Both the position numbers and the translations under genes were made by a program. Shown in pieces: positions 5,562 to 38,721 of a DNA stretch of 40,387 nt. The stretch is taken from assembly GCA_903858635.1 (NCBI GenBank), contig CAIOJO010000070.1, positions 1 to 40,387 of the forward strand, read 5' to 3'. This DNA comes from an uncultured Telmatospirillum sp. (lineage in GTDB: Bacteria > Pseudomonadota > Alphaproteobacteria > Rhodospirillales > Magnetospirillaceae). Under the pieces are notes generated by a model. The model was given only the letters and a program-made list of their open reading frames with translations. It was not told the DNA's origin and made no database searches. Position 1 is the first letter of the stretch, and every line of letters begins with the position of its first letter.

Positions 5562-5570
5562 GCCTCTTCT

Positions 5571-17725: not shown

Positions 17726-17842
17726 CCAAGGCAACACGGACGAACGCAGATGCCGCTTCGCGGCGCACGGACAAGGTGGACAAAGGCTAATTTTCTAGTC
17801 TGTGTTCGTCGGCGGATGTCCGTGTCCGTCCGTGTTGTTTGG
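17726..17842. repeat. dyad-symmetric intergenic element (AACACGGACG type)
   Basis: Between the convergent E1 beta and ETF alpha genes, CCAAGGCAACACGGACG at the left end is mirrored by the complement of CGTCCGTGTTGTTTGG at the right end. Inner parts GAACGCAGA and TCTGTGTTC also pair. The centre holds the smaller dyad TGCCGCTTCGCGGCG. It could serve as a bidirectional terminator. Similar ACACGGAC-rich spacers occur in other bacteria (recollection). Confidence 0.6.
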
Positions 17843-17871: not shown

Positions 17872-18837
17872 TCACCGCCGGCGTTCTCGCAACAGCTCGA
17901 GCAGGCGGGGGACGACGGCCTCGAACTCGGCGACCACGGCCAGATCGCAGAAGCCCATGATCGGGGCGCCGGGATCCTTGTTGATGGCGACGATGGTTCC
18001 CGCGTTTTCCATGCCGACCCGGTGCTGCATCTGGCCGGATATGCCGCAGGCCAGGTAGAGGCGCGGCCGGACCACGGTTCCGGTCTGACCGACCTGCATC
18101 GATCGCGGCGCCCAGCCCATTTCCACCAGCGGCAAGGAGACGGCGGCCACCCCGCCCAGCGCCGCGGCCAGCTCTCTGACCAGGCCGAGGTTCTCGGGCT
18201 TGCCGATGCCGCGGCCGCCGGCGACGATGATCTCGGCGGCGCTTAGGGGTGGTCCCGCCTGTTGGCTCACGGGGGTCTTGGCCACCAGCCGCGGCTGGCC
18301 CGGAACGAGGTCGATCTCGACAGTTACGATGTCGGCCGACCGCTCGGCGCCTTCCAAAGCGACCGGTTCGCAGGCATGCGGTCGGAACAGCCCCAGCTTG
18401 ACCGGGGTGGTCCATTCGACCTCGGCCAGCATGCTGTCGTTTTGCACCAGGCGCTTGCCGATCGGCCGGCCATCCCGGTTCTCGACATCGACCAATCCCC
18501 AACTGAGTCCCGCTTCGAGGCGTGCCGCCAGGCCGGCGGCCATATCGCAGGTGGCGACGGTGGTTGCCGCCAGCAGCAACTCGACGTCGTGCCGGATGCA
18601 GAGCTGCGCCAACAGGTCGACCCGCGGCGGAAACAGGGCGTCGGCCAGGACCGGGTGGTCGATGACGAAGACGCGCCGCGCGCCGTGCCGCGCCACCTCG
18701 GCCGCCAGTTCGGCGACGCCGCAGCCGCACAGGATCGCCCGGGGCTCGCCACCCCGGCCGGCGGCCTTGGACAGCACCCCCAAGGCGTCGGGGTTGAGGA
18801 TGCCCTCCTGTTCATCGACATAGACCAGGACCTTCAT
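17872..18837 (-). CDS. etfA: electron transfer flavoprotein alpha subunit
   Basis: The 321-residue protein starts MKVLVYVDEQEG. It carries the C-terminal FAD-binding domain of ETF alpha, with RGIGKPENLGLVRELA, the signature stretch from VGQTGTVVRPRLY through ACGISGQMQHRVGM, and TIVAINKDPGAPI. ETF accepts electrons from flavin dehydrogenases and delivers them to ETF:quinone oxidoreductase. Its start overlaps the ETF beta stop by four bases. It is the last gene of the leftward unit that begins with the DUF1302 gene. No ETF:quinone oxidoreductase is in the window. Start chosen at 18837; the open frame extends upstream but overlaps ETF beta. Confidence 0.95.
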   Translation of the reverse strand: MKVLVYVDEQEGILNPDALGVLSKAAGRGGEPRAILCGCGVAELAAEVARHGARRVFVIDHPVLADALFPPRVDLLAQLCIRHDVELLLAATTVATCDMAAGLAARLEAGLSWGLVDVENRDGRPIGKRLVQNDSMLAEVEWTTPVKLGLFRPHACEPVALEGAERSADIVTVEIDLVPGQPRLVAKTPVSQQAGPPLSAAEIIVAGGRGIGKPENLGLVRELAAALGGVAAVSLPLVEMGWAPRSMQVGQTGTVVRPRLYLACGISGQMQHRVGMENAGTIVAINKDPGAPIMGFCDLAVVAEFEAVVPRLLELLRERRR

Positions 18838-19598
18838 CCGACCAGGTTCCTGTCCTCGAGAAAGGCGAGAATCCGCTCGGCCGCTGAGTCCGCATCGTCG
18901 ATCACCAGTGGCTGGCGGCGCGACGGAGCCTGGCTCAGGCGCGTGACGGCGGTGCCGGCGCCAATCTCGGCGGCGCCAAGGCCGAGGTCGACCAGGCGGA
19001 GCATGCGGATCGGCTTGCTCTTGGCGGCCTGTTTGCCTTTCAAGGTCGGATAACGCGGCTTGTTGATGGTTTCCGTCACCTCGACCAGGCAGGGCAGGGG
19101 CGCCGTCATGGTCAAATCGCCGGACTCGGCCTGGCGCTCTGTCGTCACCTTGCCGTCCGCCAGGCGAAGGCTGCGCGCCTGGGCCAGGACCGGCAGCTGC
19201 AGCCGCTCGCCGGCGGCCACCCACAGCATGGTTCCGTCGACGTCGCCGCTCCACCAACAGGCCAGATAGAGATCGGCCGGCTCGGATTTGAGCAGCGCCG
19301 CCAGTGCCCGGCTGACCGCCAGCAGATCCCCGGTCGGCAGCGCCGGGTCGCTCAGCATGACGGCGCGATGGGCCCCCAGGGCCAAGGCTTCGCGCACCGC
19401 GCCCAGCGCTTCGGCCGGGGCCACGGCGACCACCACCACCTCGCCGCCGGCCGACTCGACGATCTTCAGCGCCTCCTCGACGGCATGGGCGTCGGACGGG
19501 CCCAGCACCGCCGGCCCGACCCGGCCGCCCCGCTGGAAGGCGTCTTCGACGTCGATCGCCGCTCCGGTTGCTGTCTTGACGCAGACGACGACCTTCAT
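18834..19598 (-). CDS. etfB: electron transfer flavoprotein beta subunit
   Basis: The 254-residue protein starts MKVVVCVKTATG, the ETF beta N-terminus. It has SDAHAVEEALKI, the helix with ALALGAHRAVMLSD, and the recognition-loop stretch ETINKPRYPTLKGKQAAKSK. It binds AMP and docks to the alpha subunit. The ATG at 19598 is preferred over an in-frame start 15 codons earlier because it matches the family. The gene begins 14 bases after the flavoprotein stop, so the dehydrogenase and its likely electron acceptor are co-transcribed. Confidence 0.94.
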   Translation of the reverse strand: MKVVVCVKTATGAAIDVEDAFQRGGRVGPAVLGPSDAHAVEEALKIVESAGGEVVVVAVAPAEALGAVREALALGAHRAVMLSDPALPTGDLLAVSRALAALLKSEPADLYLACWWSGDVDGTMLWVAAGERLQLPVLAQARSLRLADGKVTTERQAESGDLTMTAPLPCLVEVTETINKPRYPTLKGKQAAKSKPIRMLRLVDLGLGAAEIGAGTAVTRLSQAPSRRQPLVIDDADSAAERILAFLEDRNLVG

Positions 19599-19611
19599 GG
19601 CCGGTCGGGGG

Positions 19612-21024
19612 CTAGCTGTTCTGCAGGGCGGATTGCGCCGCATGGGCGCCGGCGATGCGACCGAAGGTCAGGGACCGCAAGACCGAGGTCCCGGCGGGGT
19701 ATTCATGGAAGTACAGGCCGACGATCTCGCCCGCTGCGTAAAGGCCGGGAATCGGGGTGCCGTTGCCCGAGACGACTCGTGCCTTGCTGTCGGTGCGGAT
19801 GCCGCCATAGGTGAAGCAGATGGCGGCGGTCAGCGGATAGGCCAGGAATGGGGGATGCTCCAGCCGGTAGGCCCAATTCGACTTGTCCGGGGTGAGGCCC
19901 GAGGTGGCCTTGCCATCCCGCTGGTTGGGATCGAACTCCCCCGGGCCGACGGCGGCGTTATAGTCTTCCACCGTCTTGACCAGCGGCTCGGCCTCCAGCC
20001 CCAGCATGGCGGCCAGTTCCGGCATGCTGTCGGCCTCGACCGGCGGCTTGTCGGTATCAAATAGGACCATGATGCCGGGATGCTTGGTGATGGTCTGGTC
20101 GGCCACGAAGAACGCGGTCTGTTTCTGATTGCGCCACACCTCGTAGGCGATCAGCTCAAAGGTCTCCTCGAAGGTGCCTTGGCCCTCGTCGTAGAAGCGG
20201 TGGCCGTCGCCGTTGACGACGATGCCGAAGGGATGGCCGTAGATGGCGGCGTCGGCCCGGTCGGTCCGCCGATCGACCAGTTCGCTGTGGATCATGTCGA
20301 ATTGGCCGGACATGGCGGCGCCGACCTCCATGGCCATGCGGATCCCTGCGCCCTGATTGTAGCCGAGGCCGGGCGCCAGCAGCGGCAGGTCGCAGGCATT
20401 GGCCCCGATATAGCGGGTCAGCATCTCCTTGTTGCCCTCGAAGCCGCCGCAGGCCAAAACCACGGCAGTGCCGTGCAGGGTCCGCAGCAGCCCGTCCGGG
20501 CCGCGGACGACGACGCCATCGACCCGCCCATCGCCGGCGAGGTTCAGCCGCAGCGCTTCCATCCGATACAGGATCTGGGCGCCGTCGCTGTCTTCGATGA
20601 CCTTGGCCAGCGCCTCGACGATGGCGTGACCACCACCATTGGGGGTTACCTCATGCTCCACCCCCATGGCCACCGGCGGTCCGTAATGGACCAGTTCGAG
20701 GCCATGCGCTTCGAGGAAACGAAGGGTATCGGGCACCTCGGCTTCCAGGGTGCGGCAGTATTCGATGTCGGACAGGCCCTTGGAGATTTCCTGCATCTTG
20801 CCGACGAAGAACGGGTCGAGGCTATAGTCCTGGCAGGCGCGGAAGCGGGCCGTCGTCCACCGGGTGGCTCCGCCGCGCTGTTCGGGCGGGGCGCTTTCCA
20901 GGATGGCGACGCGCGGCCGGTGCCCCTGCTGGCGGGCCGCCTCCAGGTAGCCGACGCCGGCGGAGAGCCCGGCGGCGCCGCAGCCGACGACGATCAGATC
21001 ATAGCTGTCTGCGAGCGAGTCCAT
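19612..21024 (-). CDS. FAD_binding_2 flavoprotein dehydrogenase (TcuA/fumarate-reductase/ketosteroid-dehydrogenase-like)
   Basis: The 470-residue protein opens with the FAD fold YDLIVVGCGAAGLSAGVGYLEAA and has ATRWTTARFR where family members bind flavin. Further on are VVLACGGFEGN, YGHPFGIVVNGDGHRFYDEG and the C-terminal IPGLYAAGEIVGLYFHEYPAGTSVLRSLTFGRIAG. This architecture is shared by tricarballylate dehydrogenase TcuA, fumarate reductases and 3-ketosteroid dehydrogenases, all of which handle C-C double bonds next to a carbonyl or carboxyl group. The ATG at 21024 follows AGGAGAAGG. Its position directly before ETF beta and alpha suggests it reduces ETF. Unlike tcuABC there is no TcuB-type membrane partner. 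Confidence 0.88.
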   Translation of the reverse strand: MDSLADSYDLIVVGCGAAGLSAGVGYLEAARQQGHRPRVAILESAPPEQRGGATRWTTARFRACQDYSLDPFFVGKMQEISKGLSDIEYCRTLEAEVPDTLRFLEAHGLELVHYGPPVAMGVEHEVTPNGGGHAIVEALAKVIEDSDGAQILYRMEALRLNLAGDGRVDGVVVRGPDGLLRTLHGTAVVLACGGFEGNKEMLTRYIGANACDLPLLAPGLGYNQGAGIRMAMEVGAAMSGQFDMIHSELVDRRTDRADAAIYGHPFGIVVNGDGHRFYDEGQGTFEETFELIAYEVWRNQKQTAFFVADQTITKHPGIMVLFDTDKPPVEADSMPELAAMLGLEAEPLVKTVEDYNAAVGPGEFDPNQRDGKATSGLTPDKSNWAYRLEHPPFLAYPLTAAICFTYGGIRTDSKARVVSGNGTPIPGLYAAGEIVGLYFHEYPAGTSVLRSLTFGRIAGAHAAQSALQNS

Positions 21025-21045
21025 TGTCCTTCTCCTTGCCCGAAC

Positions 21046-21143
21046 TAGTGGCACCGGCCTCCGTGCCGGTGTTTCGGCGGAGCCGGAAGGCGAGCATTTC
21101 CGCCGCTCCGCGGCGTAGGCCGGCAGGGACGCCGGCCCCACTA
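21046..21143. repeat. dyad-symmetric intergenic repeat, copy A (TAGTGGCACCGGC type)
   Basis: TAGTGGCACCGGCCTCCGTG at the left and GGGACGCCGGCCCCACTA at the right are imperfect complements around a 60-base core. The same ends occur at 31950-32030. It sits between the RND gene stop and the flavoprotein start, inside a co-directional unit, so it would be transcribed and may form a hairpin that lowers downstream expression. Confidence 0.75.
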
Positions 21144-21153
21144 AAGAACAATG

Positions 21154-23583
21154 TCAGTGCGCCGTGCCGGCTTGCGAGGCCAGCATCTTCTCGGCCGGCT
21201 TCTCCGGCCGGAGCAGGAAATGGCCCAGTGCCGGCAGCAGGATCAGGGCGCCCACCATGTTCCAGAAGAACATGAAGGCCAGCAGCATCCCCATATCGGC
21301 CTGGAATTTGATCGGCGAGAACGACCAGGTGGCGACGGCGATGCCGAGGGTCAGGCCGGTCAGCACCACCACCTTGCCGGTGAACAACAGGGCCCGGTAA
21401 TAGGCCTCGGACAGGCTCATGCCTTCCCGCAACCGCGCCATGGTGACGGTCAGGACGTAAAGGGCGTAGTCGACACCGATGCCGACGCCCAGGGCGATCA
21501 CCGGCAGGGTCGCCACCTTGACGCCGATGCCCAGGAAGACCATCAGCGCCTCGCACAGGATCGAGGTGAGCATCAGCGGCAGTACCGCGCAAACCACCGC
21601 CCGCCACGAGCGGAAGGTGATGAAGGCCAGCACGATCACCGCGATATAGACCAGCAGCAACATCTGATTGGTCGACTTCTTCACCACGATATTGGTGGCC
21701 GCCTGGATGCCGGCATTGCCGGCCGCCTGCATGAAGGTCATCTGCGGTGCGTTGTTGGCGGCGGCGAAGCGGTCCACCGTGCGGACCACCGAGTCGAGGG
21801 TGTCGGCCTTGTGGTCCTTGAGATAGGTGTAGATGGTGAGCAGGCTGCAATCGAGGTTGAACAGCTCGCGCGGGGCCCGCGACACGATCGAGTTCAACAG
21901 GTCCTGCGAGCGCGGGATTTCATACCATTTGGCGCTGCCCTCGTTCCACAGCACGGCGAAGCGCTTGGCCACTGCCGCCAGGGAATTGGTCGACTCGACC
22001 CCGGGCAGCTGCTGCAGATCCCATTCCAGGGCGTCCACCTTGATCAGATTGGCGTAATGGCCGCATTCGTTCACCGGCGTTCGCGCCATGGCGACATAGA
22101 TATCGCTGCTCGCCGCGTAATTCGCGGTGATGAAGGCGTCGTCCCGGTTGTAGCGGGAATCCTGGCGCAGTTCCGGCGCCCCCGGATCGAGGTCGCCGAT
22201 CTTCAGATGCTGGCTGACCAGGAAGCCGGAGATCCCCAGGACGGCGGCCACCAGGATGGCGATGACGGCTTGGCCGCGGCGGGTGAAATGGTCGAGGAAC
22301 TCCCACAGGGCGTGCTTCTTGTGGAAGGCGTCGTGGCTGTCCAGGGTGTCGTATTTCAGGCTGCGCCGCGCCGCCTTGGCGCTGACCCCGGTGTAGGACA
22401 GCAGGATCGGCAGCAGTACCAGATTGGTGAAGATGAGGACCGCCACGCCGATGCTGGCGGTGATGGCCAGATCCTGGATGACTTTGATCTCGATCACCAT
22501 CAGCACGGCAAAGCCCACCGCATCGGCCAGCAGCGCCGTCAGCCCGGCGACGAACAGCCGGCGGAAGGTGTAACGGGCGGCCACCAGCCGGTGGGTGCCG
22601 CGGCCGACGTCCTGGGTGATGCCGTTCATCTTCTGGGCGCCATGGCTCATGCCGATGGCGAACACCAGGAACGGCACCAGCACCGAATAGGGATCCAGCT
22701 CGTAGCCCAAGGTCGGCAACAGGCCCAGCAGCCAGACCACGGCGATCAGCGAGCAACTGACCACCAGCAGCGTGCTGCGGATGCAGCGGGTGTACCAGAA
22801 TAGGACGACCGAGCAGATGGCGATGGCGATGGCGAAGAAGGTGAGCACCTCCTGCAGGCCGTCGATCAGGTCGCCCACCAGCTTGGCGAAACCGGTGATG
22901 TAGATCTTGATGTGGTCGGATTCGTACTTGGCCCGCAAGTTGTCGAGGCGGTGCGACAGGTCGCGGTAGTCCAGGCGGCGGCCGCTCTGCGCGTCCTTCT
23001 CGATGAGCGGGACGAAGACGATGCTGGAGCGGAAATTGCCGGCCACCAACTGGCCGATTTCGCCCGACTGTTGGACATGGTTGCGGACCTCGTCCAGCGC
23101 CTTCGGCGAACCGTCGTAGTCCTCGTCGATGACCGGCCCGCCTTCGAGCCCTTCCTCGGTGACGCCGGTCCAGCGGGTGGCGGCGGTCCACAGGGATTTC
23201 ATGAACGGCCGTTCGACCCCCGGAAACAGGAACACCTCGTCGTTGATCTTCTGCACCACCTCGAGATAGTGGGCGTCGAAGATGGTGCCGTCGCGGTTCT
23301 CCACGGCGATGCGGACGGCATTGCCCAATCCGGCCAGGTCGGACTTGTTGTTCAGGTAATTGACGATGAACGGATGCTTGGTCGGGATCATCTTGTCGAA
23401 GCTGGCTGCCAGTTCGAGCTTGGTCGCCTGAAATCCGAGGACGGCGGTGATGACGGCGCAGACCAGGATGATGACCAGCCGATGGTTGAACAGGATGCGC
23501 TCGCCCAGCGAACCCGATCGGGCGTCGAAATCCTTCACGTCCTTGACGACCGGCTGCGCCCCGAGACTGTTGTCGTGCTTCAC
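21154..23583 (-). CDS. RND/MMPL-family transporter
   Basis: The 809-residue inner-membrane protein has the internal two-fold repeat of RND-superfamily MMPL proteins. One helix lies near residues 35-55, with a periplasmic loop following. A five-helix block spans about 245-395, then a helix near 440-465, a second loop, and a five-helix block at about 640-790. The second half has GVGIGVDYALYV with the proton-relay aspartate; the first half has AIGMSHGAQKM, lacking it. Such proteins move lipids, sterols or hydrophobic metabolites. The start overlaps the YCF48-like gene stop by four bases. With DUF1329 and DUF1302 genes upstream it probably forms an envelope-spanning handling system; direction of transport is unknown. 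Confidence 0.9.
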   Translation of the reverse strand: MKHDNSLGAQPVVKDVKDFDARSGSLGERILFNHRLVIILVCAVITAVLGFQATKLELAASFDKMIPTKHPFIVNYLNNKSDLAGLGNAVRIAVENRDGTIFDAHYLEVVQKINDEVFLFPGVERPFMKSLWTAATRWTGVTEEGLEGGPVIDEDYDGSPKALDEVRNHVQQSGEIGQLVAGNFRSSIVFVPLIEKDAQSGRRLDYRDLSHRLDNLRAKYESDHIKIYITGFAKLVGDLIDGLQEVLTFFAIAIAICSVVLFWYTRCIRSTLLVVSCSLIAVVWLLGLLPTLGYELDPYSVLVPFLVFAIGMSHGAQKMNGITQDVGRGTHRLVAARYTFRRLFVAGLTALLADAVGFAVLMVIEIKVIQDLAITASIGVAVLIFTNLVLLPILLSYTGVSAKAARRSLKYDTLDSHDAFHKKHALWEFLDHFTRRGQAVIAILVAAVLGISGFLVSQHLKIGDLDPGAPELRQDSRYNRDDAFITANYAASSDIYVAMARTPVNECGHYANLIKVDALEWDLQQLPGVESTNSLAAVAKRFAVLWNEGSAKWYEIPRSQDLLNSIVSRAPRELFNLDCSLLTIYTYLKDHKADTLDSVVRTVDRFAAANNAPQMTFMQAAGNAGIQAATNIVVKKSTNQMLLLVYIAVIVLAFITFRSWRAVVCAVLPLMLTSILCEALMVFLGIGVKVATLPVIALGVGIGVDYALYVLTVTMARLREGMSLSEAYYRALLFTGKVVVLTGLTLGIAVATWSFSPIKFQADMGMLLAFMFFWNMVGALILLPALGHFLLRPEKPAEKMLASQAGTAH

Positions 23584-24683
23584 TTTGTTTGCTCCGCGGA
23601 TTTCCCGTTGAGGACAATCCTGGCATTGCCGGCGGTGCCGGCCAGGGCCAGGCTGCCATCCGCCGCTTCGACCACGCCGAGGAGGCCCATCGGCTGGGCT
23701 GGGGCCGCGGATTTGAAGCTAAGTCCGCCATCCGTGCTGCGCAGGATCTCGCCCCAGTCGTCGACCAGCACCAGCGATCCGTCGGCCAGGCGGATTCCGG
23801 CATTGAGGCCGGAGGTTGGCAGTTCGATCTTTTGCCAGCTGTTGCCGGCATCGGACGAGCGGTAGGCGTTGCCCCTGAGGCCGAACACGACGATGGTGCC
23901 GTTGGCTGCCTGGGCCGCGCCGAACAAGGTGCCGGGGCTGGCCTTGGCCAGCGCGGCAAAGCTCTTGCCGCCGTCGGTCGAGCGATAGATGTCGCCCTCT
24001 TCGCCGACGATGAAGACGGCATTTTCCGTCGGCAGGATGGCGTAGAGATGCCGGCGCTTGGGGTTTTCGATGTTGCCGATCGAGGAGCGCCAGGTCTGGC
24101 CGCCGTCGTCGGTGGTGAAGGCCAGGCCATAGGCTCCGACCACCATGCCGCGCTTGTCGTCGAAGAAATAGAGGCCGAGAAATGGCTTGTCGGCGCCATC
24201 GGTCACCAGGCCCTTGGCTTCCCCCAGGCGATGGGTCAGCGCCGGGGTGGACGATCCGGCGGCCGCCCGCTCGGCATCCTCCAGCTCGATCTGCGCCGCC
24301 ATCTTGCCGTCCAATTGCTTGGTCCAGGTCTCGCCGGCATCCTGGGTCGTCAGCACCACGCCGCCATGACCGACCGCCCAACCCAGCATCGGCGACCGGA
24401 AGAACACATTGGTCAGCAGGACGCTGACCGGAACCTTGGCCTGGTGCCAGGTTTTCCCATTGTCGTCGGAGAGCAGCACGATACCCGCTTCGCCCACCGA
24501 GACCAGACGCGATCCGGCCCGGGCGACGGCCGTGCGCACCGATTCGAGGCTATGCAGGGAGGGACGGGAGGGGCGGTCGAGGAGATCCCATTCAAGGGCC
24601 GCTGCCGGAAAACTGCCCACCAGCAGAAGCGAGACGGCGGCGATCGTGGTGATGCGCGCCCGCACGGTCTTCAGCATGCACAT
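23580..24683 (-). CDS. YCF48-related / BNR-repeat beta-propeller protein, exported
   Basis: The 367-residue protein has a signal peptide (hydrophobic stretch at about residues 12-28, cleavage near AAA-LE). At least six Asp-box repeats of the form S/T-x-D-x-G-x-x-W/F follow: SDDNGKTW, TQDAGETW, TDDGGQTW, STDGGKSF, SSDAGNSW and STDGGLSF. This predicts a periplasmic six- to seven-bladed propeller like YCF48/HCF136, which act as assembly factors. The close coupling to the RND gene suggests a partner of that transporter. The start is either the ATG at 24683 or the ATG two codons later at 24677; neither has a strong ribosome site. Confidence 0.86.
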   Translation of the reverse strand: MCMLKTVRARITTIAAVSLLLVGSFPAAALEWDLLDRPSRPSLHSLESVRTAVARAGSRLVSVGEAGIVLLSDDNGKTWHQAKVPVSVLLTNVFFRSPMLGWAVGHGGVVLTTQDAGETWTKQLDGKMAAQIELEDAERAAAGSSTPALTHRLGEAKGLVTDGADKPFLGLYFFDDKRGMVVGAYGLAFTTDDGGQTWRSSIGNIENPKRRHLYAILPTENAVFIVGEEGDIYRSTDGGKSFAALAKASPGTLFGAAQAANGTIVVFGLRGNAYRSSDAGNSWQKIELPTSGLNAGIRLADGSLVLVDDWGEILRSTDGGLSFKSAAPAQPMGLLGVVEAADGSLALAGTAGNARIVLNGKSAEQTK

Positions 24684-24735
24684 TCGTTGTTACCGTCTAG
24701 CGAAAGGCCAACCAAGTCTCGGCGTGAGATAAGCG

Positions 24736-24767
24736 GGGCAGGGCCGGCTGCTCGGCCGGCCCTGCCC
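24736..24767. other. perfect 13-bp hairpin inside the envelope operon
   Basis: GGGCAGGGCCGGC at 24736-24748 is perfectly complementary to GCCGGCCCTGCCC at 24755-24767, with a six-base loop TGCTCG. It lies between the DUF1329 stop and the YCF48-like start. There is no following T run on the minus strand, so it may act as an mRNA stabiliser or attenuator and not a full terminator. Confidence 0.7.
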
Positions 24768-24782
24768 GCATGGCAGCGAAGA

Positions 24783-26120
24783 TTAACGGACGCCTTCCGC
24801 CCCCAGGGAATCGCTGGTGTAGAAGCTATCCGGGCGGGGTGGAACAACGGTCAGGTACTCACCGACATAGTCCTGAACGAAGCTGAAACCGCCAGCCTGC
24901 AGGTTATAGACCAGGGAAGGTTCGGTCACGATGATCGGGACTTCCGGGATGACCACCGGGAAGATCTGCGAATGCCGCCACAGTTTCCCTTCGGCGTCGT
25001 AGCCGTCCATGATCGCCACGCCCCAGGTGTCTTCGTCGATATAGAGGCGACGCTTGGGGACGGCGTGCCGCTTGCCGGGAGCGACCGTGGCGTCGAGCAC
25101 CCAGACCCGGTGCAGTTCCCAGCGGACCAGGTCGGGATTGGTGTGATAGGGAACGAAGCCCTGTTCCTGCTTGGCACCCAGGAACTTGTTGGTGTTGTAC
25201 GGGATGTAGAGTTCCTGCTTGCCGACCAGTTTCCACTCGTAGCGGTCGGGCATGCCCCAGAAACCGTCAGCTTCATCGAAATAGTTGGCGCCCGACGCGA
25301 CGAAGTCGGGAGTGTCATAAGCCACCGTCGGGGCGCGGCGGACGCGTCGCTGGCCGACCAGATACTGCCAGCCGGCGCGGCCGGTGCGCAGATTGTCGCG
25401 CACCAGGATCGATTCGCCGGTCTTGAATGACGGCTCGGTGGAGGTGAAGCGCACCAGGAAGAAGTCGCCGTTCCAGGATTCGGCGGTTTGCTCGGGGTAA
25501 TTGTTGGGGGTGTCGTGGTTGTTGTCGAAACGCGCCGCCAAGGTCAGCCGGCCGTCGGAGGTGCCGACCAGGTTGGTGCCGCCGTATTTCCAGGCCACCG
25601 GCTTCGGTCGCAGGGTATGGTTCCAAATTACCTCCCACCCCGATTTCGGGATCGGGAAGGCAACGCCGCCCGGCTGCATGTCGACCGTATTCTCCGGGGT
25701 CAGCTTGGCGGTGGTGGCGTTGCGGAAGGTGCGGTCGTAATAGTACTGCGGCAGGGCCGCCGTGCGGTGGGTCGGATAGACGTCCACCCGGTAGGTCGGA
25801 TATTTCTGCAGCAGGGCCTTGGTACCCTCGGCCAGCTTGTCGGCGTATTGCGCCATGTTCTTGGCGGTGATCGAGAACAAAGGCTTCTCGTCGGGGAAAA
25901 GATCGGCCGGAAAGGCCTCGCCGTCCTTGCGCGGCCGCTGCGCGACACCGCCGGTCCAGGCCGGAATGGTGCCTTCCTTGTTGCCGGCGCGTTCGGCGCC
26001 GACCGGAGTCAGGGTGGTCTTCAGCTTGGCCGCCTCGTCGGCGGAGACGGCGGCATGTGCGATGTTGGTGGCGGCGAACAGGGAAAGGACCGCCCCAGCC
26101 AGCAAACTGTACTTCGACAT
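24783..26120 (-). CDS. DUF1329 protein (LolA/LolB-like fold), periplasmic
   Basis: The 445-residue protein has a signal peptide (MSKYSLLAGAVLSLFAATNI, cleavage at AHA-AV) and the DUF1329 pattern: TTLTPVGAERAGNKEGTIPAWTGG at the mature N-terminus, tryptophan/tyrosine-rich strands, GQRRVRRAPTVAYDTPDF and YIDEDTWGVAIMDGYDAEG. The family is predicted to resemble lipoprotein carriers that hold hydrophobic ligands. It starts 21 bases after the DUF1302 gene behind AGGAAAAAAG. The DUF1302-DUF1329 pair is widely conserved with RND transporters in proteobacteria that use hydrophobic substrates (recollection), but its function is not firmly established. Confidence 0.9.
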   Translation of the reverse strand: MSKYSLLAGAVLSLFAATNIAHAAVSADEAAKLKTTLTPVGAERAGNKEGTIPAWTGGVAQRPRKDGEAFPADLFPDEKPLFSITAKNMAQYADKLAEGTKALLQKYPTYRVDVYPTHRTAALPQYYYDRTFRNATTAKLTPENTVDMQPGGVAFPIPKSGWEVIWNHTLRPKPVAWKYGGTNLVGTSDGRLTLAARFDNNHDTPNNYPEQTAESWNGDFFLVRFTSTEPSFKTGESILVRDNLRTGRAGWQYLVGQRRVRRAPTVAYDTPDFVASGANYFDEADGFWGMPDRYEWKLVGKQELYIPYNTNKFLGAKQEQGFVPYHTNPDLVRWELHRVWVLDATVAPGKRHAVPKRRLYIDEDTWGVAIMDGYDAEGKLWRHSQIFPVVIPEVPIIVTEPSLVYNLQAGGFSFVQDYVGEYLTVVPPRPDSFYTSDSLGAEGVR

Positions 26121-26141
26121 CTTTTTTCCTCCCGATTCTTC

Positions 26142-27839
26142 TTAGAAGCTGGTGGACAGGGTCAGGGCGACCCAATCGCGGTCCGCATAGAGCTGCCTGT
26201 AGGAATAGATATTCCCGTGCGTCGGATCGGCGATGGAGCCCTTGGTGCCGAAGTAGGTCGTGTATTGCAGGGCCGCCTTCCAGCGATCCTGGTAGGTGCC
26301 GGTGATGCCCAAGGTGATGTTGCCGGTGCCTTCGTTGTTTCCGGCGAAGGCCGTCGGACCCAGCGATGAGCGGCCGGCGATACCCCAACCGACGGTGATC
26401 GGCAGGGTCACGTCGAGGCCCGGCAGAACCTGGAAGTAGGACGGTTCGAAATTGGTCCACAGGGCCCAGGCGCTGCGCGTGACGTTGGGATCGAGCGGCA
26501 TGCCGTTGTCGACGGTGATCCGCCGGTTGGTGGCGATTTCGCCGACCCAGGCGGCCCCTTCCCATAGTGGACCGGCCGGGAACAGGGTGATCGCCGAGAT
26601 ATTTCCGTGGGCGCTTTTGCCGACCGGATAGAGCGGGTTGTTGCTGTTGTTGCCTTTGCCGGTCAGGTCGAGGATGACGTCGCCGGCATTGCCGGCGAAG
26701 GGCTGGTTGTCGCGGATCGAGAACTCGCCGGAGATGTTGGTGTCGCCGGCCAGGGTGGCAAAGCTGACCCCGTAGACCTTGATGTCGGTCGGATAGACGA
26801 CCCTATATTGGCCGACGTTCAGCCCGTAGGCCGTGAAGACCGGGGGAAGGGCGCTCGGCGTCAGATAGAACTTCGGGTCCTTCGAATGGAAATTGGCGAA
26901 ATAACCGCCGAATTCCCAATTGTTGTTGGCCTTCCACTTGATCTCCATGCCGCCCTGGCCCTGGGTCTTCGGGTCGATGTTGGGGCCGCGCGAGAAATAG
27001 GCCGGACCTCCCGCCAGGATGGCATAGCCGCCGGCATCGACGAAATCGGCGAAGCTGAAATAGCTGCCGACCCCGGGCAAGCGGTCCTTGCGGTACTCGA
27101 ACTGGTAATAGCCGCCCAGCGACACCTTCGACGACAACTGCAGGGTGCCCGAGGCCTGGCCGACCGGCATCATGATTTCCTTGAACTGCGCACTCGGCAG
27201 CGACAAGGCCTTGATCAGGTCGATCGGTGCCTGCGCTCCGGCGATACCATTGCTGCCGTAGAACAGGGTCTCGCCGTAAAGCAGGCTGTGCCGGCCGACG
27301 CGCATCGAGAACGCCTGGTCGCCGCCGAGGTCGAAGTTGCGATAGACGAAGGCGTCGAGGAGTTCCAGATCCTTGCCGTGCAGAACTTGGGTCGCCGGCT
27401 GGAAGTGGTTGAAGGGAATATTCTGGTTGTTGTTGGTGGCCGGAGACTTGTTGGAGTTGTTGTCGTTATAGACCTGGTCGTACCAGGCGGCGCCGCTGAC
27501 GCGGAACCCCATCCGCTTCTGGTAATCCAGGTCGAACTCGGTCAACAGATCGCCGCGGTTCGACGTCATATCCCCCGATTTGAAGTTGAGGTCGCCGTCG
27601 TCCATGTTGGTGTTGCCGGTGTTGTTGTTGTACACACGGCTGTCCGGCGAGCCGACGCGCATGGCGGCGGTGTATTTGACGGTATTGTCCCAGCGGATCG
27701 TCACGTCCGGATTGCCGGTGTCGATGCCTACCGCTTGGGCGGTTCCGATGCTGCCGAATACGAAGGCCGCGGCGGCGGCGGCGGACAGAGCGATTTGTGC
27801 CGCGCTCGTCCTGCGAGCGCACAAGAACGACTTCCCCAC
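26142..27839 (-). CDS. DUF1302 outer-membrane beta-barrel protein
   Basis: The 565-residue protein has a signal peptide ending near AQA-VG. Alternating strands follow, asparagine-rich turns (YNNNTGNTNMDDG, YNDNNSNKSPATNNNQN) and a C-terminal phenylalanine (LTLSTSF), typical of a BAM-inserted barrel. Family landmarks are DVTIRWDNTVKYT, RVGRHSLLYGETLFYGSNGIAGAQ and YFANFHSKDP. It is the first gene of the leftward unit, so the promoter lies to its right. It probably forms the outer-membrane part of a hydrophobic-compound handling system with DUF1329 and the RND protein. Confidence 0.9.
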   Translation of the reverse strand: MGKSFLCARRTSAAQIALSAAAAAAFVFGSIGTAQAVGIDTGNPDVTIRWDNTVKYTAAMRVGSPDSRVYNNNTGNTNMDDGDLNFKSGDMTSNRGDLLTEFDLDYQKRMGFRVSGAAWYDQVYNDNNSNKSPATNNNQNIPFNHFQPATQVLHGKDLELLDAFVYRNFDLGGDQAFSMRVGRHSLLYGETLFYGSNGIAGAQAPIDLIKALSLPSAQFKEIMMPVGQASGTLQLSSKVSLGGYYQFEYRKDRLPGVGSYFSFADFVDAGGYAILAGGPAYFSRGPNIDPKTQGQGGMEIKWKANNNWEFGGYFANFHSKDPKFYLTPSALPPVFTAYGLNVGQYRVVYPTDIKVYGVSFATLAGDTNISGEFSIRDNQPFAGNAGDVILDLTGKGNNSNNPLYPVGKSAHGNISAITLFPAGPLWEGAAWVGEIATNRRITVDNGMPLDPNVTRSAWALWTNFEPSYFQVLPGLDVTLPITVGWGIAGRSSLGPTAFAGNNEGTGNITLGITGTYQDRWKAALQYTTYFGTKGSIADPTHGNIYSYRQLYADRDWVALTLSTSF

Positions 27840-28241
27840 TTGGCCCCTCCCACGAAAATTGGCCGAATTGATTCGTCCGTTTGGTCGCCGGGACTATGGG
27901 GGTCACAATCCCAGCCATGACACGGTACGGCAGCGCTCCGTGGGGGCTCCACTCAGGGAGAAGAAACATTAGTTTCATTGCGAACTACCGACGAATGCGG
28001 CCCCTTTCATGGGCTTACAGCGTTTCCGGGTAACGTCTTGATATTTCCGCAAGAAGATAAGCTCGCTGAGCGGTTGCGGCGGTGGTTTTGGCGATATCGG
28101 TGCATGGTGACCTGCCTTGAAAGGGAAGCCGGCGCTCGGTAGGTTCGCTGCAGGAACGGCAAAATGACGCGATCCTCGGCGCGGCGCGCTTCCCGATGAT
28201 GAGCGATGTGCCAGGCGCGTCTTTTCGAAAGGCGGAGCAGG
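27840..28241. promoter_or_regulatory. divergent control region of the DUF1302 and MDR operons
   Basis: This 402-base gap must hold the promoters of both divergent units. A perfect short dyad, GAAAC-ATTA-GTTTC, lies at 27963-27976, about 125 bases before the DUF1302 start, and is operator-like. AT-richer sequence occurs around 28030-28060. No known regulator site could be named and no gene is seen. Confidence 0.35.
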
Positions 28242-29264
28242 ATGCGAGTTTACAGGCTTCCCACGGCCGGCGGCATCGACAGCCTGACGATGGTCGATGA
28301 GGACATGCCGCGCCCGGGGCGCGGTCAGGTTCTGGTGCGGATGCAGGCCGCCTCGCTGAATTTCCGGGACTTGTTGGTGGTGAAGGGGCAGTACGGCCGC
28401 AGCCCGGCGCGTCCCAACCTGATCCCGCTGTCGGATGGCGCCGGCGAGGTGGTCGAGGTCGGAGCGGAGGTCTCCCGCGTCAAGCTGGGCGACCGCGTCG
28501 CCGGGATCTTCATGCAGGAATGGATCGGCGGCCCGATGACCCCCGAAGTCCAGCCTTCGGCCCTGGGGGGCGGTGCCCGCGATGGCGTGCTGGCCGAATA
28601 TGTGTTGCTCGACCAGCACGGCGTGGTGCCGATCCCCGCCCATCTGTCCTATGCCGAAGCCGCTTGCCTGCCCTGTGCCGCGGTGACGGCTTGGAACGCA
28701 CTGTTCTCCTATCGTCCGCTGGTCGCCGGCGACACCGTGCTGGTGCTCGGCACCGGGGGGGTCTCGGTATTCGCCCTGCAATTCGCCCGGATGGCCGGCT
28801 GCCGCGTCATCACCACCTCGTCCAGCGACGACAAGCTGGAACGGGCCCGGAGCCTGGGCGCCTCGGACGGGGTCAACTACCGGACGCGGCCCGAATGGCA
28901 GCAGGCGGTGCAGGACCTGACCGAAGGTCGCGGCGTCGACCATGTGGTCGAGGTCGGCGGCGCCGGAACCCTGTCGCGATCCCTGCAATCGGCCCGTTTG
29001 GGCGGGGCAATTCACCTGATCGGCGTATTGACCGGCGTCGCCGATGTCAACCCGATGGCGATCCTGCAGCGCAACCTGACGGTGCGTGGTGTCTTCGTCG
29101 GGTCGCGTCACATGTTCGAAGACATGAACCGGGCGCTGGCCTTCCACCAATTGCGGCCGGTGATCGATCGGGTGTTTCCGTTCGACCATGCCAAGGCGGC
29201 GTTGCGGCACCTTGAGTCGCAGACCCATGTCGGCAAGGTGGTGATTGCCATCGGCGCCGCCTGA
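28242..29264 (+). CDS. zinc-independent MDR oxidoreductase (quinone oxidoreductase / alcohol dehydrogenase-like)
   Basis: The 340-residue protein starts MRVYRLPTAGGIDSL. It has the GroES-like domain (AASLNFRDLLVVKGQY, PLSDGAGEVVEVG) and a Rossmann domain with VLVLGTGGVSVFALQFARMAG near residues 163-183. The catalytic zinc ligands of alcohol dehydrogenases are not in place, so it is an NAD(P)H-dependent reductase of the quinone or enone type. The ATG at 28242 follows GGCGGAGCAGG; an upstream in-frame ATG at 28206 lacks a site. It leads a three-gene rightward unit with the amidohydrolase 20 bases downstream. Confidence 0.88.
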   Translation: MRVYRLPTAGGIDSLTMVDEDMPRPGRGQVLVRMQAASLNFRDLLVVKGQYGRSPARPNLIPLSDGAGEVVEVGAEVSRVKLGDRVAGIFMQEWIGGPMTPEVQPSALGGGARDGVLAEYVLLDQHGVVPIPAHLSYAEAACLPCAAVTAWNALFSYRPLVAGDTVLVLGTGGVSVFALQFARMAGCRVITTSSSDDKLERARSLGASDGVNYRTRPEWQQAVQDLTEGRGVDHVVEVGGAGTLSRSLQSARLGGAIHLIGVLTGVADVNPMAILQRNLTVRGVFVGSRHMFEDMNRALAFHQLRPVIDRVFPFDHAKAALRHLESQTHVGKVVIAIGAA

Positions 29265-29284: not shown

Positions 29285-30169
29285 ATGAGCAAGTACCAGC
29301 CCAATATCGACCTCGCCGGGGTCGTGGCGATCGACATTCATACCCATGCCAATCTTTCCAGCCGGGCGCCCCGCGATCCCTGTTCGATCATCGTCGACGA
29401 GGCGATGGCAAAATATTTCAAGTCCGGAAAGCTGCCGACCATCCCGGAAATCGCCCAGTACTACCGCGACCTGAAGATGGCGGCGGTGATCTTTCCGGTC
29501 GACTGCGAAGCGGAAATGGGGCATTGGCGCATCGCCAACGAAGAAGTGGCCGAACTGGCGGCCGAGAACAACGACGTGCTGATCCCGTTTGCCAGCATCG
29601 ATCCGGCCAAGGGCAAGATGGGGGCCCGGGAGGCGCGCCGGTTGATCGAGGAGTATGGGGTCCGCGGCTTCAAGTTCCACCCCACCGGGCAGGGCTTCTA
29701 TCCCAACGACCGCAAGGCTTATGTTCTCTACGAGGCGATTGCCGCGGCCGGGCTGCCGGCCCTGTTCCATACCGGGCAGACCGGCCTCGGAGCCGGCGCG
29801 CCGGGCGGCATGGGGCTGCGGCTGAAATATTCCAATCCGCTCTACCTGGACGACGTCGCCGCGGATTTCCCCGAGATGCCCATCGTCATGGCCCATCCGT
29901 CCTTTCCCTGGCAGGACGAAGCCCTGGCCGTCGCCACCCACAAGCCGACGGTGCATATCGATCTGTCCGGCTGGTCGCCGAAATACTTCCCGCCGAACCT
30001 GGTCCAGTACGCCAACAGCCTGCTGAAGGACCGCGTCCTGTTCGGCTCGGACTATCCGGCGATCACCCCGGAGCGGTGGCTGGCCGATTTCGACAAACTG
30101 CCGATCAAACCCGAAGTTCGACCGTTGATCCTCAAGCAAAACGCCCTTCGGCTGTTGAGGCTCGTCTAG
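29285..30169 (+). CDS. ACMSD-like amidohydrolase_2 family hydrolase
   Basis: The 294-residue TIM-barrel metal enzyme shows IDIHTH (H19, H21), a metal histidine in FHTGQTG (about H162), AHPSFPW and the catalytic aspartate in FGSDYP (about D256). It belongs with aminocarboxymuconate-semialdehyde decarboxylases, hydroxycinnamate-pathway beta-ketoacyl-CoA hydrolases (CouO type) and related enzymes. A hydrolase or decarboxylase acting on a ring-cleavage or beta-keto intermediate is likely. The neighbours are an enone-type reductase and an acyl-CoA ligase, favouring a CoA-thioester pathway; this is inference. Confidence 0.85.
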   Translation: MSKYQPNIDLAGVVAIDIHTHANLSSRAPRDPCSIIVDEAMAKYFKSGKLPTIPEIAQYYRDLKMAAVIFPVDCEAEMGHWRIANEEVAELAAENNDVLIPFASIDPAKGKMGAREARRLIEEYGVRGFKFHPTGQGFYPNDRKAYVLYEAIAAAGLPALFHTGQTGLGAGAPGGMGLRLKYSNPLYLDDVAADFPEMPIVMAHPSFPWQDEALAVATHKPTVHIDLSGWSPKYFPPNLVQYANSLLKDRVLFGSDYPAITPERWLADFDKLPIKPEVRPLILKQNALRLLRLV

Positions 30170-30310: not shown

Positions 30311-31915
30311 ATGTACGACAAGTTGCGGGATCACCAGCGTTGGGTGTTGCCGGAAGTACTGGCCTATCAGGCCAAGGCGCGCGGCGACAAGGTCTATGTC
30401 ACGATGACCAGCGGCGAAACCCTGACCTACGGGGCGGCGGCGGCGGATGCCGCCCGGGTTGCCGGTTTCCTGGCCGGGCTGGGGGTGATGCCGGGCGATA
30501 CCGTCGCCGTGATGATGCCGAGCGGTCTCGACTACCTGCGCATATGGCTGGGCATCGGGCGGCTGGGAGCGATCCTGGTGGCCCTCAACGCCGACCTCAA
30601 GGGCAGCTTCCTCGAACATCAGCTGAGCAACTGCGGCGCCAAGCTGGCGCTGTTCCATCGGGACCATCTCGAGGTCCTGTGCGACATCGCGCCGCGGCTG
30701 CCGGCAATGCAGACGGTGGTGGTGGCCGGCGATGCCTCGACAGCCGTTGCCGCTGCCGGCTGGCGCCTGGCCGGTTTCGACGGCTGGCGCGGCGCCCAGC
30801 CCTATGACGGCCCGCTGCCACAGGCCAAGGATATCGGCTGCATCATCTACACCTCGGGCACCACCGGGCCGTCCAAGGGTGTCCTGATGCCGCATGCCCA
30901 TTGCTATCTGTTCGGCTTGGGGGTGATCGACAATCACGCCATGACCGAGGACGACGTCTATTACGTCGTCATGCCGCTGTTCCATGTGAACGGGCTCTAC
31001 ATGCAGCTTTACGCCACGCTGATCGCCGGGGCGACGGCGATCCTGCGGCCGCGCTTCAGCGCCAGCGCCTGGTTGGAGGATGTGCGCCGCTTCGGCGTGA
31101 CCTTCGGCAATCTGCTGGGCGCCATGTCGGCCTTCGTCTTCGCCAATCCGCCCAGCCCGGCCGACCGCGAGCACCGTCTGCGCATCATTCAGACGGCGCC
31201 CAATCCGCCGGAGCACGAACGGACCTGGCGCGAGCGGTTCGGCATCCCCGAGGTGCTGTCGGGCTTCGGCATGACCGAGGTCAATATCGCCGTCTACGGC
31301 CAGATGGGGAAGCCGCGCCCGGGCACCTGCGGCAAGGTCTACGGGCGCTATTTCGAGGTCGAGGTGCGGGACCCGGAGACCGACGAACCGGTGCCCGCCG
31401 ACGCCGTCGGCGAGATCATGGTGCGTCCCCGCGTGCCCTTCGGCTTCATGGCCGGATACTACAAGATGCCGGAGAAGACGGTCGAGGCGTGGCGCAACTT
31501 CTGGTTCCATACCGGCGATGCCGGATCGATGGATGCCGACGGCTATCTCAGCTTCATCGACCGCATCAAGGACTGCATCCGCCGCCGCGGCGAGAACATT
31601 TCGTCGTTCGAGGTCGAACGGGCCATCGCCCGATTGGCGGGCGTGCAGGAAGTGGCGGCCTTCGCCGTGCCGGCCGGCACCGCCGGGACCGAGGACGAGG
31701 TGATGCTGGCGGTGGTTCCGGCCGAGGGTGTTGCGCTGGACGTCGAGACGGTGGCCCGGCACGCTGCCAGCGAATTGCCGCGGTTCGCCCAACCGCGCTT
31801 CATCGAGATCGTCCCGGCCCTGCCGAAAACCCCCACCGCCAAGGTGCAGAAGGCCCAGCTAAGGCAACGCGGCATTACCGCGGCGACCTGGGACCGCGAG
31901 AAGGGGGACGCGTAG
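30311..31915 (+). CDS. class I adenylate-forming acyl-CoA ligase
   Basis: The 534-residue enzyme activates a carboxylic acid with ATP and CoA. The P-loop YTSGTTGPSKGVLMPH is near residues 180-195. GFGMTEVN, FHTGDAGSMDADGYL and DRIKDCIRRRGENISSFEVE follow, then the C-terminal lysine motif PKTPTAKVQKAQLR. The ATG at 30311 follows GGGGAGCGG. It resembles CaiC and medium- or long-chain ligases more than benzoate ligases, but the substrate is unknown. The acid made by the GMC/aldehyde dehydrogenase pair is a natural candidate. A dyad repeat separates it from the amidohydrolase, so its level may be set separately. Confidence 0.92.
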   Translation: MYDKLRDHQRWVLPEVLAYQAKARGDKVYVTMTSGETLTYGAAAADAARVAGFLAGLGVMPGDTVAVMMPSGLDYLRIWLGIGRLGAILVALNADLKGSFLEHQLSNCGAKLALFHRDHLEVLCDIAPRLPAMQTVVVAGDASTAVAAAGWRLAGFDGWRGAQPYDGPLPQAKDIGCIIYTSGTTGPSKGVLMPHAHCYLFGLGVIDNHAMTEDDVYYVVMPLFHVNGLYMQLYATLIAGATAILRPRFSASAWLEDVRRFGVTFGNLLGAMSAFVFANPPSPADREHRLRIIQTAPNPPEHERTWRERFGIPEVLSGFGMTEVNIAVYGQMGKPRPGTCGKVYGRYFEVEVRDPETDEPVPADAVGEIMVRPRVPFGFMAGYYKMPEKTVEAWRNFWFHTGDAGSMDADGYLSFIDRIKDCIRRRGENISSFEVERAIARLAGVQEVAAFAVPAGTAGTEDEVMLAVVPAEGVALDVETVARHAASELPRFAQPRFIEIVPALPKTPTAKVQKAQLRQRGITAATWDREKGDA

Positions 31916-32041: not shown

Positions 32042-33012
32042 CTACTGCATGGTGGCGACGGCGGCCAGGCAGCCGTTGCGGAAGTCGCGCGGGCTGGTGT
32101 CGTAGTGTTCGCGGAACACCCGGGCGAAATGGGTGGCGTTGTTGAACCCCCAGCTGAAGGCGATCTCGGTGATGGTGTGCTTCTTCCACAGGGGGTCGGA
32201 GAACTGCTTGACGCATTGCTCGAGGCGGCGGCGCAGGATGTAGTTGCACACCGTTTCGTCCTGGTTGGCGAACAGCATGTGCAGGTAGCGGGGCGAAATG
32301 CCGAAGGCCGCGGCGGTGGATCGCGCCGTCAGTTCGGGATCGCGCAGATTGGCCTCGATGTAGCGCTTAATTTGGATCCGCCGGGATTCGGCAACGGCTG
32401 ATTCGCTGGTCTTCCTGCCGTTGGCCATCAACCAGCTGGTCGCCACCATGTCGAGGATGCTGTTGGACACCCGGTTGCGCATGTCGGGGTCGATGCCCTC
32501 CTTGGCATGGGTCCACAGGCTACCTAGAGCATGGTCGAGGTGACGCTTGAAAAGCCCTGCTTACCGGACAGCTTGGTGCAGATCGCCTGTTCCGGCGTCG
32601 GCAGATACTGTTTGAGCTCGGCGGCGGGCACCGAGAGGACCAGCGTCGTGGTCGCTTCGCCCAGATGGATGGTGAACGGCAGAGAGGTATCGCAGAAGGT
32701 GAAGTCGCCTTCCTCCAGCTCGACCTCCTTGCCGTCCTGGGATACCGCGAAACGACCCCGGACATGCAATTGAATGAAGAACTTGCGTTCCGTCGAGCGG
32801 GATGCGTGGCTGACCTGATGGACGATGCTGGCCGCTCCGGACACCACATGGGCCAAGGCGATACGACCCAGATTGAGGCAGCTGATATCCGCATCGAAGG
32901 CCGAATAGTCGAAAGGCCGGGCCTCGAGCGGGGTGAAGACGGAACTGACCGCGTCATTCCAATACGACACTTTTGCCTTGGCGGGCAGATCTCGGGTAGA
33001 ATAAGTCAGCAT
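32042..33012 (-). pseudogene. AraC-family transcriptional regulator, frameshifted
   Basis: Two adjacent reading frames make up one regulator. From the ATG at 33012 (after GGGAG) runs an AraC-binding-like sensor domain (LTYSTRDLPAKAKVSYWNDAV ... TKLSGKQGFSSVTSTML) ending at a TAG at 32526-32524. The other frame continues as GSLWTHAKEGIDPDMRNRVS and a complete AraC DNA-binding domain with two helix-turn-helix parts (AAFGISPRYLHMLF; ITEIAFSWGFNNATHFARVFREHY), ending at 32042. At the junction the minus strand reads ATG CTCTA GGT AGC. Removing one CT gives an open frame MLGSLW, so a two-base duplication is the simplest cause. A free DNA-binding domain could still be made from the ATG at 32482. FeaR/PegR-type regulators of alcohol or aldehyde use share this layout. 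Confidence 0.85.
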
Positions 33013-33358
33013 GGAGTTCTCCCAGAAGTAGTCTTTTTGTTTTGCTGTGATTATTCTAATAAGCAATAAGGGAACTTTTCAGCGCTTCGACAACACCTCA
33101 GGCAAAAAGGAAGGAAACGGGGCATCCACCGATGCTGCGGCCCGACTCTTCACGGTCGGCGCGCCTGGTTCATAGACCATTGCAAGAGCGTACGGATTGC
33201 CCTTCAACCGAAACGCTACACGGGCAGCCGAGCCGGTGTCAAGCCGAGCTGTCCCGGGGCAGCGGTTCTCATTATGGCGTTGATGGGCAATGGTCGGACG
33301 TCAAAGGGCGCCCTGAGGCGGGATCGACTTTTTCAACGGACAGCGAGCAGTGATGCGG
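33013..33358. other. intergenic region, promoter of the AraC-type gene
   Basis: The first 70 bases (33020-33080) are AT-rich and suit a leftward promoter for the regulator. The remainder up to the GAF gene stop is G+C-rich with no family-bearing frame. No insertion sequence ends or terminator could be supported. Confidence 0.4.
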
Positions 33359-33955: not shown

Positions 33956-34214
33956 GGCGCGATTCCCGCAAGGGTCAACCGACGTCGGGCGCCGCCCGTC
34001 TTGTGACCGGCCGGGCGAAAATGCCGGCCGAGTGGTGGTGCCATGGGATAATATTTATGACGCTTTGCCTAGACCGTCAAGTCGTTGTCCAATTAATTGG
34101 CGAGATGATCGCGATAACTTGCGTCTATCCTGAAGTATATAAAGCGGTTCACATGATTATGTCATTTGTAACATGGCGCCGCGACTCTGGTCGCCCGTCG
34201 CGCCGGCGGCCCTT

Positions 34215-35699: not shown

Positions 35700-35854
35700 G
35701 GCGTTGTTCCTGCTGGGCGGGTGGGGGCTAATCCTAGCGTCGGGCGAAGGCCGAGGTCGAGGGCGTGGTACGTTGCGGGCTAGGCACGATTCGGGGCCTG
35801 GCCATTGCGATTCACGTCGCGGTCCCTACCTGCCTCCCAGAAAGGGACTGGCCA

Positions 35855-36841: not shown

Positions 36842-36843
36842 CT

Positions 36844-36887
36844 CGGGCCGCCGGCCCGGCGCTTTCCGGCCCCTGGTCAGGCCAGGG
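36844..36887. terminator. paired short hairpins between convergent genes
   Basis: CGGGCC-GCC-GGCCCG at 36844-36858 and CCCTGG-TCAGG-CCAGGG at 36871-36887 lie in the 35-base gap and first codons between the kinase and the FAH-family gene. They could end transcription from both sides. No T-rich tails are seen, so the call is tentative. Confidence 0.35.
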
Positions 36888-38687: not shown

Positions 38688-38721
38688 ATTAAATGCGCTT
38701 TGTCCCGCTAATATGTTCATT

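Follow-up and report, generated by a model that had tools for sequence, protein, structure and literature searches.

The window analysed here is a stretch of 40,387 nucleotides, positions 1-40387 of contig CAIOJO010000070.1 (C70 of genome G000), from the draft genome of an uncultured Telmatospirillum sp. (6.13 Mb in 568 contigs). Between positions 17872 and 27839 it carries seven genes, all on the minus strand, each of which scored above its own Pfam cut-off in a profile search. They fall into two modules: module 1 (21154-27839) encodes DUF1302, DUF1329, YCF48-like and RND proteins, and module 2 (17872-21024) encodes an FAD_binding_2 dehydrogenase followed by the beta and alpha subunits of an electron transfer flavoprotein (ETF), the starts of these last three genes having been refined from the sequence (Table 1). 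The gene families, their order and their leftward strand are therefore as the original prediction had them. Its description of small gaps or overlaps holds for most junctions, namely 21 nt between the DUF1302 and DUF1329 genes, 99 nt (containing a perfect 13-bp stem) between the DUF1329 and YCF48 genes, 13 nt between the FAD_binding_2 and ETF beta genes, and 4-nt overlaps between the YCF48 and RND genes and between the two ETF genes; it fits least at the RND/FAD_binding_2 junction, a gap of 129 nt that contains a dispersed repeat. Module 1 is of a kind already known; what is new is the FAD_binding_2-ETF trio and the fact that it recurs close to such cassettes, and the most interesting part of the locus is the ETF, whose alpha subunit has Leu at the position of an otherwise typical flavin-site Arg.

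Table 1. Features of the locus, with the evidence for each
Feature	Position	Strand	Evidence
DUF1302 outer-membrane barrel, AmeA-like	26142..27839	-	PF06980 E 5.8e-130; N-terminus signal-peptide-like by eye
DUF1329 periplasmic LolA-like protein, AmeB-like	24783..26120	-	PF07044 E 8.7e-116; N-terminus signal-peptide-like by eye
YCF48-like BNR propeller, AmeC-like	23580..24683	-	PF14870 (PSII_BNR) E 1.1e-19
HAE3-like RND (MMPL) transporter, AmeD-like	21154..23583	-	PF03176 E 5.3e-23
Dispersed self-complementary repeat between the modules	21046..21152	.	Genome repeat search; fold z
FAD_binding_2 dehydrogenase, predicted fumarate reductase/KSTD fold	19612..21024	-	PF00890 E 1.4e-37; model and fold comparison
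ETF beta	18834..19598	-	PF01012 (ETF) E 6.6e-28
ETF alpha, Leu for the usual Arg	17872..18837	-	PF00766 (ETF_alpha) E 1.3e-31; alignments
Divergent Zn/MDR-type dehydrogenase, possibly same locus	28206..29264	+	PF00107
Amidohydro_2 protein, divergent cluster	29285..30169	+	PF04909 E 3e-51
AMP-forming acyl-CoA ligase, divergent cluster	30311..31915	+	PF00501 E 2.4e-69

ETFs are best known as the electron acceptors of acyl-CoA dehydrogenases. In the window, the ETF and ETF_alpha domains are both above cut-off, and the alignments place the Leu of the alpha-subunit segment AVSLPLVEMGW at the position occupied by Arg in the canonical segment (GASRAAVDAGF) and in those of bifurcating ETFs (TSRACVDAGW in 6fah and GSRATIDAGW in 5ol2). 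This Arg has reportedly been linked to a stabilisation of the semiquinone by about 200 mV. According to the available text of a study of both canonical and bifurcating ETFs, the flavin owes its high first potential in part to this Arg, together with a Ser and a His (PMC12630350); the window ETF would therefore probably have a lower first potential and undergo two-electron reduction more readily than standard ETFs do. A single further ETF alpha was found in the genome (contig C242); it is canonical and has the Arg, as do all 25 comparison ETF alphas (20 chosen from 82 rows, plus five from other loci), none of which was accompanied by an FAD_binding_2 homologue (E 1e-10) in the stretches examined.

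A scan of GTDB contigs for ETF alphas with a non-Arg motif returned 61 loci, 59 of which were readable (L097 and L102, in which the motif lies at the edge of the DNA, were dropped). Among the 32 that read SLP, 29 have an FAD_binding_2 homologue, on the ETF strand in 23; the others are L064, L099 and L092, the last of which has one about 23 kb away on the same contig. The remaining 27 non-Arg loci (18 SLA, six SMP/TMP, two TLP and one TMA) had no FAD_binding_2 homologue in the stretch examined. Because the scan was conditioned on the absence of Arg, what these counts establish is that Leu-Pro ETFs are accompanied by FAD_binding_2 genes, not the converse, and Arg-type FAD-linked ETFs are invisible to it. 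When pairs were approached from the FAD_binding_2 side, Leu was found in all three (the window, G173 and Variovorax PBL-E5, with Variovorax SRS16 left out).

The SLP rows fall into two groups in the ETF alpha tree. The larger has 33 rows (support 100) from Burkholderiales, Acetobacterales, sphingomonads and others; in the other the window pairs with that of Sphingobium sp. OAS761 (98), and this pair is joined with six actinobacterial SMP/TMP rows (99), such that Leu stands for Arg in a second FAD_binding_2-linked ETF lineage also. A single clade, and hence one origin, of FAD-linked ETFs was rejected by an approximately unbiased test (p 0.002), run by a quick method on a group named after the tree had been seen, with 81 of 87 rows kept and six long-branch rows left out. 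The idea that the change from Arg to Leu strictly marks ETFs with FAD_binding_2 partners was likewise rejected, given the SLA and SMP/TMP loci and an Arg-type ETF in Paraburkholderia (described below). The mycofactocin ETF model gave scores far below its cut-off of 240 bits, at 92.4 for the window ETF and 94.1 for that of G173. The actinobacterial ETF alphas that group with that of the window (L049, L069, L084, L086, L100 and L106) have Met-Pro at the Arg position, and in three of these six loci a short-chain dehydrogenase/reductase (SDR) is encoded in the same stretch.

The four genes of module 1 (DUF1302, DUF1329, YCF48/COG4447 and RND) stand in A-B-C-D order and agree with the composition and order by which AmeABCD is defined in the accessible text of PMC6394551. 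The module is accordingly classed by analogy as an AmeABCD-type lipophile-handling cassette, for which transport itself is predicted. The best NCBIfam row for the RND protein is TIGR00921 (HAE3; E 1.6e-50), at 171.9 bits and below the cut-off of 351.9, and its nearest relatives among the cassettes read are in the same-family locus L035 (67-69%) and then in Ramlibacter (63%). DUF1329 was found in 53 of 398 sampled genomes of the phylum and, within the family, in 19 of 55, both counts including the window's genome. This genome has seven DUF1329 copies, the six others lying on contigs C393, C335, C172, C398 and C273, and some of these adjoin divergent RND (24-29%) and YCF48 genes; in L031 and L032, from the window's genus, Ame-type cassettes are reordered as DUF1329, DUF1302, RND and YCF48.

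Proximity of such cassettes to FAD_binding_2-linked ETFs recurs elsewhere. DUF1329 is present in eight of 34 genomes with these ETFs (6/13 in one set and 2/21 in another), and three of the eight carry the full four-gene cassette on the ETF contig, with about 5.8-10.2 kb between the two: Acidocella sp. KAb 2-4 (cassette 128533-135320, ETF 145562-147324), the metagenome-assembled genome (MAG) Acetobacteraceae bog_937 (ETF to 11575, RND from 18001, where the stretch examined begins) and a Ramlibacter MAG (ETF 24978-26749, cassette 32596-39184). All three ETF alphas read SLP. An RND tree was built of 16 rows; one of them, L168, is cut at the stretch edge, and AmeD, a second Paraburkholderia RND (split between L147 and L148) and the fragment L044 are not among them. 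In this tree the window falls with Acidocella, Acetobacteraceae bog_937, Ramlibacter and Paraburkholderia in a seven-row clade (99), the two further members of which are same-family cassettes that lack ETF genes. The cassette of Paraburkholderia sp. CNPSo 3272 is succeeded by genes for an SDR, an alcohol dehydrogenase (ADH; 51% identical to the window's divergent MDR-type dehydrogenase), the beta and alpha subunits of an Arg-type ETF, a Rieske-oxygenase-like protein and a 3-ketosteroid-delta1-dehydrogenase (KSTD) that exceeds its model cut-off (PRK12844, 921.5 bits vs 789), and cassette, ADH, ETF and KSTD all lie within 15 kb. This locus supports ring-ketone dehydrogenation near such cassettes and indicates that the ETF need not be of the Leu type.

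In the sample of the phylum, an ETF alpha gene was found within 8 kb of DUF1329 in four of 52 other DUF1329 genomes (G152, G466, G398 and G418), the ETF being canonical; as G152 and G466 belong to one genus and about one case is expected at random, the proximity of cassettes to canonical ETFs says little by itself. In G418, DUF1302 and DUF1329 occur with no RND or YCF48 in the stretch read, and at most four scored candidates were taken per genome in this search, so that copies may be missed. A catabolic island also recurs (L020 9166-18993; L144 11668-18301, with L145; L167 401-11575; L110 7986-15993), in which genes for HsaABCD-like ring hydroxylation and cleavage (scored in L144, where all are below cut-offs, and alike by eye in L020 and L167), Asp/Glu racemase-like, isochorismatase-family and SDR proteins, and two to three FAD_binding_2 proteins accompany a Leu-type ETF; a Variovorax plasmid copy from linuron-contaminated soil has part of this set.

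We consider the chances about even that this is a catabolic locus of two separable modules, a lipophile cassette and a CoA-independent dehydrogenase with its own ETF. The barrel, periplasmic carrier, propeller and RND pump would move a lipophile or its intermediates across the envelope, by uptake or by export, and the cargo is probably alicyclic, terpenoid- or steroid-like. The FAD_binding_2 enzyme, in the cytosol, would take two hydrogens from beside a carbonyl with no need for CoA and pass the electrons to its own ETF, from which they would reach the quinone pool through ETF:quinone oxidoreductase; the two modules may share a transcript. The coupling of envelope handling to dehydrogenation through ETF that the original prediction proposed is partly supported, by the known nature of the cassette and by FAD_binding_2/ETF proximity to such cassettes in a few unrelated bacteria.

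As one conserved unit, the same proposal fares poorly, and several findings weigh against the two-module reading itself. The seven-gene order was seen in no other genome among the loci read, and a conserved seven-gene operon is therefore rejected. Positions 22-128 of the RND/FAD_binding_2 gap match a self-complementary repeat of about 105 bp that gave 247 first-look candidates across the genome, of which 40 were scored (86-100% identity, counting the copy in the gap), the whole gap has a fold z of -4.1, and these 129 nt with their repeat part module 1 from module 2. Eight same-family DUF1329 loci, representing 8/25 places and 6/18 genomes with the window's genome excluded, contained no homologue of the window's FAD_binding_2 or ETF proteins at E 1e-8, although six have all four cassette genes (two are cut by contig ends). 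The closest trio found, in Sphingobium sp. OAS761 (FAD_binding_2, ETF beta and ETF alpha in the same order, at 60, 49 and 51%), is in a genome with no DUF1329 match. In the remaining five of the eight genomes having both, cassette and FAD-linked ETF are on different contigs of drafts, and the Paraburkholderia ETF, about 1.3 kb from the KSTD, is of the Arg type. The closest plasmid homologues of the FAD_binding_2 protein (Rhodococcus and Cupriavidus, 47-54%) have no annotated ETF nearby in a gene table that is incomplete, and the Z values of the fold comparison given below (33.1-36.4) are too close to distinguish a reductase from a dehydrogenase. A consensus scan found no excess of promoter-like (1 vs 1.3 expected) or terminator-like sites (10 vs 7.0 expected, sd 2.8), a scan that says little in so GC-rich a genome.

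The repeat at the join, the eight family loci and the Sphingobium trio would all suit an explanation that is possible, if clearly less probable than two modules of one catabolic locus: that the cassette and an unrelated FAD-ETF module are neighbours by chance, with separate regulation and substrates. Set against this are the recurrence of the association in three of the eight genomes having both, with another ETF lineage, and the RND clade common to the window and the recurrent cases. Random placement within 10.3 kb would give 0.16 cases rather than three (P about 6e-4), a lenient null because catabolic genes cluster.

Whether the enzyme of module 2 oxidises or reduces its substrate bears on a second alternative. 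The FAD_binding_2 protein (PF00890, 130.4 bits vs a cut-off of 20.4) has no signal peptide by eye, and its AlphaFold2 model, built from nine sequences with a mean predicted local distance difference test score of 81, has the predicted fold of fumarate reductases and KSTDs; urocanate reductase is the top structural match (Z 36.4), followed by fumarate reductases (about 35), KSTDs (33.6-34.8) and cyclohexanone dehydrogenase (about 33). No equivalog cut-off was reached among the rows shown, and assignments as TcuA (PRK08274, the nearest equivalog, 346.8 of 369 bits), 3-ketosteroid dehydrogenase (PRK12844, 105.1 of 789 bits) and flavocytochrome c fumarate reductase (TIGR01813, 130.8 of 285.45 bits) were all rejected. 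We think it unlikely that the enzyme works in reverse, with the ETF donating electrons for the reduction of an enoate or enone. The structural ranking and the best PDB sequence matches, which are flavocytochrome c chains, favour such a reaction; the low flavocytochrome c score, the catabolic neighbourhood and a Thr in the column of the fumarate reductase Arg (Arg402; alignment, column matched by eye), which we take to be part of the active site of that enzyme, speak against it. The cassette would then export toxic lipophiles, and its Castellaniella counterpart is indeed named an efflux system in the available part of PMC6394551. It is more improbable still that the trio oxidises a carboxylic acid much as tricarballylate dehydrogenase does, with the ETF in place of TcuB and no relation to lipophiles. 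TcuA is the nearest equivalog, and plasmid relatives at 33-37% bear the annotation TcuA, several of them adjoining tripartite tricarboxylate transporter genes; against this, the score is below cut-off and the closest relatives (47-60%) adjoin genes for an aldehyde dehydrogenase, an SDR, a thiolase, a P450 or an amidohydrolase-like protein, one of them with an SLC13 permease as well.

Homologues of the FAD_binding_2 protein seldom stand beside an ETF. In the set of relatives searched at E 1e-60, only one other of 99 genomes matches it (43% over part of the protein), and the plasmid homologues include those of Rhodococcus opacus (54%) and Cupriavidus necator N-1 (52%). ETF genes were found at one of 18 other FAD-homologue loci (L018), with about 1.5 kb examined on each side, and in one of the nine FAD-found plasmid regions whose gene tables were examined (Variovorax PBL-E5). 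A locus search with the FAD_binding_2 protein as query gave 28 pattern matches, none of which was confirmed; with the same-type enzyme of G173 as query, G173 was the sole match among 398 genomes.

The divergent plus-strand cluster (MDR-type dehydrogenase, Amidohydro_2 protein and CoA ligase) may be part of the same catabolic locus. The ligase scored 530.5 bits against PRK06155, under the cut-off of 722, and an amidohydrolase common to the window and Sphingobium L089 was not supported (best E 0.007). Immediately downstream of ETF alpha, an inverted repeat with 19-nt arms (84%) lies at 17732-17837 between convergent genes. Further away, positions 2215-11136 encode in succession a GMC dehydrogenase, an aldehyde dehydrogenase, a PRK02399-type protein, a biotin carrier, a biotin carboxylase, a carboxyltransferase and an HAD hydrolase, and GC content falls to 0.47-0.52 over the nucleotidyltransferase and class-V aminotransferase genes of positions 1-2000.

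More generally, we suggest tentatively that FAD_binding_2 dehydrogenases acting on alicyclic substrates without CoA acquired, on at least two occasions, a dedicated ETF that has lost the Arg and is of low-potential or two-electron character, and that together with AmeABCD they could constitute a recurrent import-and-dehydrogenate system for lipophilic rings. Arg-less ETFs paired with enzymes of the fumarate-reductase/KSTD fold would offer a ready-made test of what determines ETF potential, and the link to the cassette, if true, would connect DUF1302/DUF1329/RND systems, which are poorly understood, with a particular oxidative step and point to substrates worth trying.

A literature search in one library agrees with the original prediction that no system with this exact order has been described; its ingredients, however, have been, since AmeABCD and an ETF occur in one monoterpene island of Castellaniella defragrans, according to the available text (PMC4109377). 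The AmeABCD of strain 65Phen, presented in the accessible text as a conserved cassette in a distinct HAE3 lineage (PMC6394551), matches the window in its four families and in their order. As far as the available descriptions go, the FAD enzymes of that island are CtmAB, with a ferredoxin, the ETF genes lie about 40 locus numbers from the cassette, and no FAD_binding_2-ETF trio stands beside it. In a methanogenic benzene degrader, a highly expressed ‘nanopod’ cluster likewise encodes DUF1329, YCF48-related and MMPL proteins together, without an FAD_binding_2-ETF trio in the tabulated genes of the part available (PMC13101534). In Pseudomonas putida, PP_0765/PP_0766 and PP_2018/PP_2019 are needed on Tween 20 (PMC10866462, available text); DUF1302 and DUF1329 proteins, a periplasmic protein and an efflux transporter of correlated phenotype are again involved, but from two loci, and that text mentions no linked FAD-ETF. 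The window ETF retains the domains, the QVGQTG motif and the His after GISG..Q of canonical and bifurcating ETFs (1efv, 6fah and 5ol2), and differs from them in its Leu and in a partner that is an FAD_binding_2 enzyme rather than an acyl-CoA dehydrogenase. That enzyme, as modelled, shares the fold of KSTDs and cyclohexanone dehydrogenase (Z 33.1-34.8), yet unlike KSTDs it is far under the KSTD model cut-offs. In C. defragrans, growth on limonene was reduced by insertions in ameB and in the gene for ETF:ubiquinone oxidoreductase, as given in the available text (PMC4109377), which makes a coupling of cassette and dehydrogenation plausible; together with the P. putida genetics (PMC10866462), and to the extent that these partly available sources describe them, these phenotypes link DUF1302/DUF1329 systems with substrates of a hydrophobic or surfactant kind.

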